In this document: positions 1 through 7,414 of the stretch, piece after piece
How the letters are laid out: each line of letters opens with the position of its first letter
How positions within the stretch are numbered: position 1 is the first letter of the stretch
NCBI GenBank assembly: GCA_001630475.1
Contig: KV419405.1
Location: forward strand, 4,900-68,899
DNA: 64,000 nt
Source of the DNA: Sistotremastrum niveocremeum HHB9708
Taxonomy: Eukaryota > Basidiomycota > Agaricomycetes > Sistotremastrales > Sistotremastraceae
Reading direction: 5' to 3'
Translations under genes and position numbers: made by a program
Notes under the pieces: model-generated
What the model saw: the letters and a program-made list of their open reading frames with translations, nothing else
The model's database searches: none
What the model was told of the DNA's origin: nothing

Positions 1-640
1 AAATAATACCAGGCATAGGAATGACCATGTCAGGCATATTGGGATGCACAGACAATATTCTAACATACCCTTGACTTGCGCCTCACTTACTCCTTCCCTT
101 CCACCTCACCTTCCTCTGAACACTTCCTTACGTTTTCAGATGCAGACCTTGGTGGAGACAAGGATGCAGGCAAGTCCACCTCTGGCTATGTGCTGAAGAT
201 TGGAACAGGTGCATTTTCCTGGAAGTCCAAGCTGCAGACTATTGTTGCCTTGTCCACTTGTGAGTCAGAGTATGTTGCAGCAGTTGCTGCTGGTGCTGAG
301 CTCCTCTGGGTCCGCAACCTCCTCTCTGAGTTTGGCTATCCCACTTCTGGTCCATCCTCCCTCTTCATTGACAACCAAGCCGCCATCTCTGTTGCCAAGA
401 ACCCAGAACACCATGGTCAAGTGAAGCAGCTTGACTTGGATACTGTCTGGTTGCGTCAGCATGTCATGGATGGTGCCATCCTTCCTATTCACATCCCCTC
501 CAACAACAACGCCGCTGATGTGATGACCAAGCCTTTGGAGAAGGTGAAGCATCACAGGGCTCTTGGACTGTTGGGCCTTGTCCCATCAGGTGGGAGTGTT
601 GAAGATGGGCCAGGATGTCCAAACAGGTGGGAGTGTTAGA
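1..640 (+). mobile_element. 3' end of a Ty1/copia LTR retrotransposon (fossil)
   Basis: Reading rightwards from about position 76, the protein matches the RNase H end of a copia-type polyprotein: a DADLGGD-like start, a SWKSK..VALSTCESEYVA block, an FIDNQAAI block and the closing DVMTKPLEKVKHH..LG segment. All are well-known copia landmarks. A purine-rich tract with the repeated phrase GGTGGGAGTGTT (about 589 and 627) precedes TGTTAGAATTGTG at 634, the usual kind of start for a copia LTR. The element enters from outside the window, so only its 3' end is visible and the right edge of the LTR could not be fixed without a second LTR. It is treated as an old copy; its age cannot be judged from one end. 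Confidence 0.85.
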
Positions 641-1845
641 ATTGTGTTCTGACATTGCTTCTTCTTGTTTTCATTTCATTATACCCTTCTTCAAGTTAGT
701 GACACCTTTATATCAAAACCTCTGATACTGATAACCTCAAGGGACTCAAGTCCAAGCCGCAATACTCAGCGTCATCCATTGCCCTCTTCAATGTATGAGT
801 CTCCCATCGAGAATGTCCGTAGAAGCCTTGCTGTCCCGCTGTTGCCCCAATACTCCTCCGTTCTCGCCATCGCCCAGGTTGAATCTACTCACACTGTAGT
901 TAAGATCATATAGGTGAGTACTTGTTGATACCATGAATGCATTTCACTTGTTGACGTACTTCATACACTCAGTGTTCTTTTGCCACAGATATCAGGAGTG
1001 GGATCGCACAAATATGAATGAATTGGAAGGTCGAGATTAATGATGTTGACTTTTTTCGGTGGCGATATCATTATAATTTACGATTCATTGCTGACTCCTG
1101 TCCATTCACTTTCAGTCTTTCTTCTAACAACTTTGTTATGCCCTTTTGTCGCCATTTAGAGTATTCGGTAGCCCCATCCCCATCCTCGATGTCTTCTCAC
1201 CATCCATTAAATGGTCGCATCCGACTCTTTGATTATTCTCCTCACTGGCTAAATGGCAACTCTCATCTGGAATGCGGTGAGCTGTGGGAGTATCTGAATT
1301 ACGAGTTGTAGTATAAAATCCGAAATTGTTATTTCTGGAAGCTGCACCATATGAGTATTGGACACCGCTCAGATGGTCTTGGTAGTGAAGCCTGGCCAGT
1401 GCTCGTGCATTGGCTCAATCACCTCAGAGAAGTTTGTCCAGGACTCGCGGTTTACTAGGCTTAAAGAATGTACTGCATATTATGTAGCCCAGAAGCCATG
1501 AAATTGTCCAATTGACAATTTTGAGGGCTACGGTTGACTTAGATCGAAACCCCGCATACCCATCTCCGGGGCATGCTCGTATTCAAACAATGTGAGGAAG
1601 TGTGACAGTGACTGCGGGTTTAAACACTCGGCAAACTCCAGAAACACTGGCTGTACAGGTTTTCCGGCAACTGCCTCGCTTGCCTTGACCTCTGTTGATC
1701 ACCCTCTATCGAGACCAAGCAATCAAGATCATTTTTGGTTTTCCGGCTCTGCTTTCTGCTTCAATACGTTTGCGTTGGTTTTTCTATGCTTTGCGTACAT
1801 CCTTTCTGCCTCAGAGTGTAAATTGGTCTTTCAGGTGTTCCGTCT
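641..1845. other. stretch without a recognisable gene
   Basis: The first part must be LTR sequence of the copia fossil; the remainder holds only short open stretches that match nothing known to me. A near-perfect palindrome, AAATTGTC-CAATT-GACAATTT, lies at 1501-1521. A splice-like pair (donor at about 912, acceptor at about 989) hints at a decayed or unrecognised transcript. The last 250 bases, up to 1837, may be part of the host gene fragment that continues at 4304, because they end in a good donor context (CAG before GTGTTC). Confidence 0.4.
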
Positions 1846-4235
1846 TAAGGTTTAACACAAATACTAACCTGCCTAACTCAGGTACCTGTTGGCAGGTACC
1901 TACCACTGTTTTATTCAGAAAAGGCCTAACCTGCCACCTGCCAGTGCCAATAGCAGGGAGGTACCTGGCAGGTCTGGCTAGTGTTTCGAAGTCCAGTCAC
2001 GGCGACCGGAAATGACCGGCGACCGTGACCGGACCGATGCGGTCGCAACCGGACCTGCGGTTGCGGTCACGCAAAATCTCAAGGGGTTGCAGTCTACGGT
2101 CAGCTCATCTTTCAAAATTTGCAGCAACCGGTCGTGACCGGTCATGACCGGTCACGACCGACTGTGGAGTACATACCTTGGCATACACCAATATCGTCGA
2201 GAGAGGCGGTGGAAGTGCAGTTGCAATTGTCGGGAGAGGATGATAAAACCAACAGAGAACGGTCGGAACGTAGAGCTAGTGTTAACGATATGGCATTGTG
2301 GCGGCGTAGGGAATCAATACATGTCTATCGAGATGAGCTGGAATGAGAATGAGTTCCTGACTGATACGAAAAAAAAATGTCGTGACGCACGATTGACTAT
2401 CCGAACAACCGGACGATCCCTCAGCATCCTCACGCGCATCACTATATCGTCCGCTCCATCTCATCGCTATCAACTTGTGATCCTGGAAACAACGGATTGG
2501 TGATGAAGTCGTAGAGCGCTGTTTCAAAGGGCTGGTGATGGAGACTCGCGGAATCGAGGAGCGTAGCAGGCAGACACGATGAGAGATAGAAGAGAAGCAT
2601 GAAAGGATGTTGAGGGCAAGATATCATCGCAAAAGTTCGAGACGTTACGCGAATCGTCGCGGTGCAAGAGTGAACCCAGTCGACGTGATGCTGCCAGTGA
2701 TGTCGTATGGAGAAGGTTGACAGAGTGCTTGAATATCCAGATATTCAGAGGCTACGGCACTATTGGACGTCGCTCTCGATGAAACGACGACGATCATGGC
2801 ATGAGCAGTGGTCCTGGACTCCATGCGACTGGCCGCCACGCTGGATGCTCGACGACGACGACGACGCGTTGGCGGAGCTTCAACTTCGCGTCGGTGCTCT
2901 CGGGCGATTTCGGAATGGATCAACGTGATCTCAAACCCTCCGACTCGAACACCTGTCTCGTTCACAATATCTCCAACAGCCTGACTCTGTGTTGAAAGGA
3001 CGGTACCATGCCAGCCAGAATCGTATAGTGAATCAGGATATCGGGTTTTGAGGAAGATTGAACGAGATCGAAAGAACTTTACCAGTCGTGAGTCATGCTT
3101 TCAATGATAAGCTCAGCGTACGCTGACGACTTTTGTGCGAGGGGGCCACAGTCTCGCAGTAGATTTCAAATCTACTTCTGCAATGATTTTCATCCCATTC
3201 GGCCTTCCTTTACTGTATTCTGACCACACTCTCCAATAATCTCGCGCCGGCACGGTCTTTCTGCTATCCCCACCTTCGACTCTTGATCCAGGTTCTCTCA
3301 CCATTTTCGCTCACTCATCTCCTCCATCCAATGTTTGCTGCAAGACGCGCGGGCATCACCAGTGCAAAAGATTGTTGTCATACTGTCAGTGCGAGCGAGA
3401 AGTGCGATTGAGGTGCAATCGAAAGGAGAGTCAGAAGAGACGAGGGTCGGATGCAGATCTCAAACACCGAGGTGTGTCTCCTACGTTTGTCATTTCATCG
3501 ATTCCACTAATGTACACATTTCTTCCCACTCGTAAACTGATCGCCCTCGATCCTCACATTCGCGTTCTAGCTTTCAACGTCACCAACAGCCCCCTTTCCT
3601 CCAAGTTGACTCAACTCTTCCCTCGATTGTTGGCCTGTCGATTTTCCGTTCCTGCTACGATCGACTCGACTCGTGAGTGCTCTTTGGTTCTTAAACCCGA
3701 CTACTGAGAACGTTGGTCCCGACAGTGCTTGATGTGAGGTTTGTTCAATAAGGTAAGTTGGTATGAGTGATAAACGGCAAAACGGAGTTCCACATCATGT
3801 AGCTCTTCGTGTATAGAAATATATTTTGGTAGTGATATACATTCTGTGCAGTCAAAACCTTAGACAGACCGGTTCAGTGACCGGTCAGCCAGATGACCGG
3901 TCCAGCAACTGCGACTGGACCGATGACCGGCGGTTGTGACCGTAGACCGCGGTCACGGTTGCCGGTTAACCCAAATCGGTGCGACCGGCAACCGATACCG
4001 GTCTCCGGTCGGCGCCTGCGGCGGGCCAGGGTCCGGTCGTAACCGGACTTCAAAACACTAGGTCTGGCAGGTCCCCTGCCAAAAATGACAGGTTAACCTG
4101 CCTAAGGTACCTCAAAATGACAATTTTTTCCAGGAAAGCTGGCACCTGCCACCTGTCTCTTGCTTACATAAGGAGGTACCTGGGCAGGTTAACTCACGGG
4201 TACCTGTAAAATGCCGGTATTCGTGTTAAACCTTA
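1846..4235. mobile_element. short non-autonomous hAT element, split by a second hAT
   Basis: The left end reads TAAGGTTTAACACAAATAC and the right end, on the opposite strand, TAAGGTTTAACACGAATAC, so the terminal inverted repeats agree almost completely. Both begin with the Y-A-R-N-G pattern known for hAT elements. The 8 bases TTCCGTCT occur directly outside both ends (1838-1845 and 4236-4243), as expected for the 8-base target duplication of hAT transposition. Removing the inner element and one copy of its duplication leaves only about 300 bases with no reading frame, so this is a miniature (MITE-like) copy. Its inner flanks carry several GGTACCTG-like palindromes, which resemble the sub-terminal transposase-binding repeats described for hAT elements. 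Confidence 0.88.
1979..4060. mobile_element. second hAT element nested in the first
   Basis: The left end reads TAGTGTTTCGAAGTCC and the right end, on the other strand, TAGTGTTTTGAAGTCC. Both fit the hAT terminal pattern. The 8 bases GGTCTGGC flank it on both sides (1971-1978 and 4061-4068). The first and last 180-200 bases are dense in GACCGGTC-like palindromes. The interior (about 2165-3850) has no frame resembling a hAT transposase; the longest open stretches are about 110-120 codons and match nothing known. It is therefore a non-autonomous copy of 2,082 bases. The interior has mixed, pyrimidine-tract-rich composition like host intergenic DNA and could be captured sequence, which is inference. 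Confidence 0.87.
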
Positions 4236-4303
4236 TTCCGTCTTCATGGTCGGACACTCTTGTTCTCCACGATGTTGTCGTTCGCACTTTACGGAATCTA
4301 ATT

Positions 4304-7234: not shown

Positions 7235-7414
7235 TTTTGAGGTCATAACCGCATTAACCGGTCAAAGTCAGGTCATGGTCACCCAATTTTGGCTTAACCG
7301 TGACCGTTGGCGGTTATAGGTTGCAGCAAAACCCATTAACCATAACCGCAGTTTGGTTACGGTTAGGGCCTCCAAGGTGCCTATAACCTAACTTAACCTG
7401 ACTTTCAAACACTA
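7235..7414. mobile_element. partial element of the GACCGGTC/TAGTGTTT family
   Basis: The right end, read on the other strand, is TAGTGTTTGAAAGTCAGGTT, closely like the termini of the inner element at 1979-4060. The preceding 170 bases hold repeated ACCGGTCA, GGTTATGG and AACCGTGACC phrases. No left terminus or 8-base duplication could be found, so the left limit is approximate. Confidence 0.55.

Follow-up and report, generated by a model that had tools for sequence, protein, structure and literature searches.

Nested hAT-like insertions in Sistotremastrum niveocremeum and a non-autonomous family with conserved ends and divergent interiors

This locus raises the question of whether the tract at positions 1838-4243 is one hAT element inserted into another, in which order the two arrived and what kind of family the inner one represents. 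It was addressed by comparing the window (the whole 64-kb stretch of DNA analysed, C12:4900-68899) with the searched genome, 34.7 Mb in 111 contigs; in the style of its genes and introns the window looks fungal. The outer element, a hAT-like MITE with the TIR TAAGGTTTAACAC, occupies positions 1846-1978 (left part) and 4069-4235 (right part) of the plus strand and is flanked by the 8-base TSD TTCCGTCT at 1838-1845 and 4236-4243; its TIRs lie at 1846-1864 and 4217-4235 (19 nt, 95%). The inner element, a non-autonomous hAT element of 2,082 bp (1979-4060, plus strand), is flanked by GGTCTGGC at 1971-1978, which are the final eight bases of the left part of the MITE, and at 4061-4068, and its TIRs lie at 1978-2001 and 4038-4061 (24 nt, 88%). 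With the insert removed, the outer element (1846-4235) measures about 300 bp. An earlier note on this DNA, which had placed the ends at 1846/4235 and 1979/4060 and had given each element its own pair of 8-base duplications, was correct to the base.

Genome searching located seven other copies of the outer element at 84% or more, a count that excludes 24 places matching only parts of it at 73-78% and the relatives L066-L068. Five copies are full-length (C47, C8, C86, C12:484193 and C41), align end to end with the 300-bp MITE of the window and carry the uninterrupted target GGCAGGTCTGGCAGGTCC with one GGTCTGGC each, that is, they are paralogous empty sites. The two copies cut at one end (L046, C48:19384-19682, and L047, C5:1207173-1207471) likewise lack the insert, the target there being GGTCAGGC; these two share their flank and probably represent one duplicated region. 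The single GGTCTGGC in the five uninterrupted copies indicates that GGTCTGGC is a true duplication and that the inner insertion was the later event, the order that the earlier note had proposed. It is near certain that the tract holds two nested elements, the inner younger than the outer, and nesting in itself is ordinary. The same note had named a lack of other copies in the genome as the finding that would speak against it; in addition to the seven outer copies, 13 other places were found to share both ends of the inner element.

The TIRs of hAT elements start with the consensus [TC]A[AG]NG. The termini of the outer MITE (TAAGG) fit it, and of the six copies that retain both ends four have perfect 8-bp TSDs (those of the window, L042, L043 and L044) and two, L041 and L045, do not. 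Pairwise identity among these six was 0.957-1.000, gaps not counted, and the element is short, non-coding and represented by several near-identical copies, as a MITE is. It resembles hAT MITEs in its size of about 300 bp, TIRs, 8-bp TSD and near-identical copies, and differs from them in nothing notable. On C83 a damaged hAT domain has one end of the outer type (57 bp, 93%) at a distance of about 500 bp, and no second end was found within 7 kb. On the basis of termini, TSD length and this C83 end the MITE appears hAT-like, an assignment weaker than that of the inner element. The earlier note's view that the outer termini fit the hAT pattern is supported.

The inner element has an 8-bp TSD and short TIRs of the same [TC]A[AG]NG type. 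Fourteen copies, the window's own included, were studied (L022-L035); TAGTG was found at the left end of all 14 and at the right end of 12, the right end of L034 and L035 being TAGGG, and 15-17 of the 18 terminal bases pair in every copy. The genome holds 23 matches to the hAT dimerisation domain. Two complete elements carrying this domain start with the same bases as this family: one of 5,020 bp (C13:655644-660663; TSD AGCGTAGT in element orientation; PF05699 at 3e-13) and one of 7,366 bp with a hAT transposase (C9:16437-23802; TSD AACGGCGC). The transposase pieces found on C39, C66 and C9 have about 37-70% of their residues in common with those of C13. The mobilising partner was not found, the ends of the C13 and C9 elements being only 0.51-0.68 identical to those of the inner family. 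Related ends, 8-bp TSDs and hAT transposase in these two complete elements support the assignment of the inner element to hAT, which the earlier note had suggested from its termini. Fungal hAT7 elements make 7-bp TSDs (PMC12730594), and the elements described here, fungal and hAT as well, differ in that theirs are of 8 bp.

The 14 copies do not include L036 (C54:13961), for which one end only was found, an inverted end piece at C36:75118 that adjoins L029, or weaker end matches on C39, C89, C19, C13, C10, C21:120741, C50, C54:82522 and C63, which were taken to belong to other elements. For the comparison one base was removed from L033, and L035 was given a redefined right end. Copy lengths range from 2,063 to 2,419 bp. 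The conserved ends, which in the window comprise the TIR and subterminal ACCGG/CCGGT repeats at 1979-2161 on the left and positions 3868-4060 on the right (both plus strand), measure about 180 and 190 bp and show a mean identity of 0.817 (range 0.732-0.892; 91 pairs). Perfect 8-bp TSDs flank 11 of the 14 copies, including that of the window, and none was found in L028, L033 and L035, whose flanks match at 1, 3 and 3 of 8 positions and thus are not near-misses. In the 11 perfect pairs all 88 paired bases agree (95% upper limit on divergence, about 3.3%), indicating that those 11 insertions are young.

The interiors (2162-3867 on the plus strand in the window, where no coding signal was found) are 1.7-2.0 kb long and barely alignable between copies. 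Their mean identity was 0.448 (range 0.391-0.620; 91 pairs), and when interiors alone were aligned, taking every fourth pair, it was 0.432 (minimum 0.388) against 0.414 (maximum 0.450) for the reversed control. Control families of the same genome do not show this pattern: ends and interiors had identities of 0.976 and 0.995 in the outer MITE (six copies), 0.871 and 0.922 in a 460-bp MITE whose termini are of the same type (six copies) and 0.970 and 0.929 in a 510-bp MITE (three copies). Since the TSDs of the 11 copies are nearly undiverged, nearly all interior divergence must be older than their present insertions. Four interiors were searched against the whole genome (E up to 1). Three gave a self-match only, among them the window's copy (query 2310-3840); the fourth, L025, retrieved two relatives (66-68%), and in one of these an additional 40 nt matched at 83%. 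The search is insensitive: with L025 as query it did not report L027, although the two share about 67% identity across 1.6 kb, and 'single copy' therefore means that there is no relative much closer than about 67%. Judged from these queries, none of the interiors searched has a close sibling in the genome, and the lineages seem to be near single-copy.

Profile comparison nevertheless linked the interiors, in contrast to reversed controls, which gave 8e-4 at best. The L022 interior matched those of L034 (8.8e-15), L035 (9.5e-13) and L024 (1.6e-11), and L033 matched L022 at 1e-13, in that direction only. L025, L027, L031 and L032 form one closer group and L034 and L035 another; L026, L028 and L029 had only weak links to the other copies. 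Inverted matches (L032/L027, 8.6e-7; L026/L028, 1.1e-4) argue against simple collinearity. Several 7-mers are bound to position (GGTGCGT in 8 copies, GACGCGT in 7 and GACGCAC in 7; at most 4 in three shuffles). A central box, ACGCGTTGGCGGAG at 2864-2877 of the plus strand in the window's copy, has the form ACGCGT-N1..5-CGGAG and occurs in 8 of the 14 interiors, always on the plus strand (mean in shuffles 0.023, maximum 2), at 868-902 in element coordinates and at 1072 in L029. Its exact 18-letter version occurs four times in the genome, three times in the inner family and once (C12:453976) outside any recognisable element. With up to 2 mismatches the genome holds 110 occurrences against 99 for the reversed control, so that only the place of the box within the family is informative. 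From sequence, the interiors look related rather than random filler. At about 840-930 (element coordinates) some 50 nt are nearly unchanged among L025, L027, L031 and L032, the rest being mostly diverged; this stretch separates the ACGCGT-like half of the box from the CGGAG half and comprises two hairpins, AGGATGACGCGAAGTCATCC and CGCTAACACTAAGTTAGCG in L027. Strong hairpins are not general.

Signals resembling introns were found on both sides of the box, facing outwards. GACGCAC reads on the opposite strand as GTGCGTC, a splice donor. In the left arm of the window's copy such a signal runs on the minus strand (2338-2390; GTGCGTC donor at 2390, YAG at +53, CTCAT and no good branch site), and in the right arm on the plus strand (3472-3570; GAG/GTGTGT donor at 3472, CTAAT at +35, first AG ending at 3570). 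Among the 14 copies the left donor was not found in L033 nor the right one in L032. Counted from the donor, a branch-like [CT]T[AG]A[CT] falls at +31..40 in 11 left arms (minus strand) and in 10 right arms (plus strand), out of 13 each, the background at random places being 286/4000 and 289/4000, respectively; a YAG ending at +58..63 was seen in only 8 of the 13 left arms. GTNCGT followed after about 30 nt by CTRAY and then YAG is the ordinary layout of a fungal intron. The strict motif GTNCGT-N27..33-CTRAY gave 22 hits in the 14 copies against 6 in the entire 64-kb window. Of the 22, 11 fall in the left zone on the minus strand, 9 in the right zone on the plus strand (eight copies) and 2 elsewhere; the zones were picked after seeing the donor-branch result. 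Two of the nine right-zone hits, that at 1407 in L026 and one of the pair in L030, do not coincide with the aligned site, and the strict motif is absent from both arms of the window's copy and of L033. Of the 13 copies with a right donor, 12 have it 541-662 bp from their right end and L033 has it at 744 bp. No weight was given to an AG-free zone that follows the right donor, since it is uneven and partly owed to pyrimidine richness.

A related question is whether these interiors encode a protein. No significant window of 3-base rhythm was detected in six interior pairs, in which 45 of 234 gaps were divisible by 3. The longest ORFs averaged 101 aa against 95 in shuffles, and in 12 of 26 arms a frame stayed open through the 90 nt preceding the donor, less often than at random places (0.70). 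Peptide conservation between copies was strong only within the group of the four closest, where both strands showed it, as DNA similarity would lead one to expect; elsewhere it reached E 0.001 or worse. Transposase remnants in the interiors were rejected, tblastn giving no better than E 0.04. Searched against Rfam, the 14 loci gave seven matches at E values of up to 5, every one to a microRNA model and well short of its gathering score; these were rejected as well, two (L025) lying in the flank, five (L032 and L029) in the repeat-rich ends and none in an interior. By these measures the interiors look non-coding, and the missing rhythm, ORFs near shuffles, closed frames and lack of transposase or Rfam matches make non-coding transcription units the preferred reading.

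A second hAT-like family was also found, consisting of three elements of 3.33-3.37 kb with TAGAG termini on C63, C21 and C10 (L061, L062 and L063) and with perfect 8-bp TSDs (GCTAGAAG, CCAGTGTA and ACTTTGAC). Their ends are roughly 81-93% alike, and among the matches listed only the ends are similar to the inner family. The C63 and C10 interiors are 77% identical over most of their length, and the other pairs are hardly alignable save short islands. Between C63 and C10 identity falls abruptly from about 80% to 40% near 2,500, which suggests that these interiors may be mosaic. Outward signals were present in the right arm of all three elements (601-673 bp from the right end) and in the left arm of two, with one extra hit in C21, and ACGCGT lies at 2535-2560 in all three without adjacent CGGAG. 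This family behaves like the inner one, with conserved ends, divergent interior and similar layout.

The events at the locus could be explained as follows. A 300-bp hAT-like MITE inserted at TTCCGTCT and, later, the 2,082-bp non-autonomous element inserted into it at GGTCTGGC, both presumably moved in trans by a hAT transposase with an 8-bp staggered cut, as suggested by the TSDs. The inner family would be long-lived, its ends, with many ACCGG/CCGGT repeats, staying similar presumably because the transposase must recognise them. The interior, without a recognisable protein, would drift almost freely, many copies keeping the central box and the outward intron signals, a layout that we infer to represent a pair of spliced, non-coding transcription units that diverge from the centre. 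Since the interiors searched (L025 apart, with its relatives at 66-68%) gave no genome match but themselves, the lineages seem to move without building up copies. We consider it probable that this is a long-lived non-autonomous hAT family in which the ends, and perhaps two divergent non-coding spliced units, are kept as the sequence drifts near single-copy; transcription and splicing of the interiors are putative, being read from motifs. It is conceivable, but distinctly doubtful, that it stands for a class of non-autonomous hAT elements that carry as cargo a divergent pair of spliced non-coding units, kept for its layout rather than its sequence, and in which interior turnover and near single-copy state aid persistence.

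Several other explanations have to be weighed against this one. That the whole tract is a single chimeric element could be argued from the one outer TSD pair that bounds it; this can be regarded as already refuted, since uninterrupted outer copies carry a single GGTCTGGC and independent inner copies own their TSDs. It might also be that all inner copies are simply old and that their interiors, now near saturation, drifted after insertion. The 11 perfect TSDs and ends still about 0.82 identical speak so strongly against this that it is highly improbable as a whole, and it was counted as refuted for those 11 copies, not for L028, L033 and L035. More of the data could be accommodated if the interiors were unrelated filler or captured host DNA with the ends alone shared, as in maize Ds2 and Ds-l4, whose interiors are described as unrelated or filler DNA (PMC3260210). 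Most interior pairs barely exceed the reversed control and some, L026 above all, are linked weakly to others, but the profile matches reach 8.8e-15 (L022/L034), the box and donor-branch signals lie at similar relative places and the three interiors that matched only themselves hit no host sequence, which makes unrelated filler very improbable. A single ancient host capture in the ancestor of the family is possible.

The intron signals, the purine-rich stretches that precede the donors and the scattered weak peptide matches outside the four closest copies (E 0.001-0.009) would suit a protein-coding gene with several introns that evolves extremely fast; with no significant 3-base rhythm and gaps mostly not divisible by 3 in the six pairs, ORFs about as long as in shuffles and pre-donor frames open less often than at random places, such a gene is improbable. 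The interior motifs might instead be DNA sites, bound by the transposase or a host factor or forming a replication or chromatin element. The ACGCGT half of the box, which resembles the fungal MCB cell-cycle box, would fit this, as would the mirroring of the two arms and the 5 of 13 left arms without YAG at the expected place. The succession of donor, branch-like site and, in 8 of 13 left arms, YAG argues for putative introns of the ordinary fungal layout, and DNA sites are, on balance, an unlikely account of these motifs.

The preferred reading, a long-lived family with kept ends and drifting, presumably non-coding interiors, finds its closest precedent for variable interiors in the Ac/Ds classes Ds2 and Ds-l4 of maize, which are likewise non-autonomous hAT elements with 8-bp TSDs, shared ends and differing interiors (PMC3260210). 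The inner family is unlike these classes, as there described, in that many of its interiors hold motifs in the same order, within a narrow range of element length (2,063-2,419 bp) and with a common layout. In the open-licence literature no description of this family or of its interior pattern was found. Pack-TIR elements, too, are non-autonomous and have conserved ends and differing interiors; the pattern is alike, but with the four interiors queried no captured host fragment was found here, and the motifs are in place.

The usual picture of non-autonomous DNA transposons is one of short-lived bursts that yield near-identical copies. The two related families described here combine young insertions with old, mutually hardly alignable interiors and a common layout of signals. 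They allow two questions to be put to the test: which features other than its ends a transposon has to preserve, and whether turnover of its sequence makes homology-based silencing easier to escape. If the proposal is true, homology-dependent silencing might spare a copy that shares only about 200 bp per end with any other. RNAi is reportedly connected with stalled spliceosomes in Cryptococcus, which bears on this silencing speculation only.

Two further features of the window lie outside the nested tract. An open frame at 76-639 reads like the RNase H end of a Ty1/copia element and had no Pfam match. The sequence at 7399-7414 is like one end (TAGTGTTTGAAAGTCA) of the 460-bp hAT-like MITE; the six copies of that family examined elsewhere in the genome all have perfect 8-bp TSDs.
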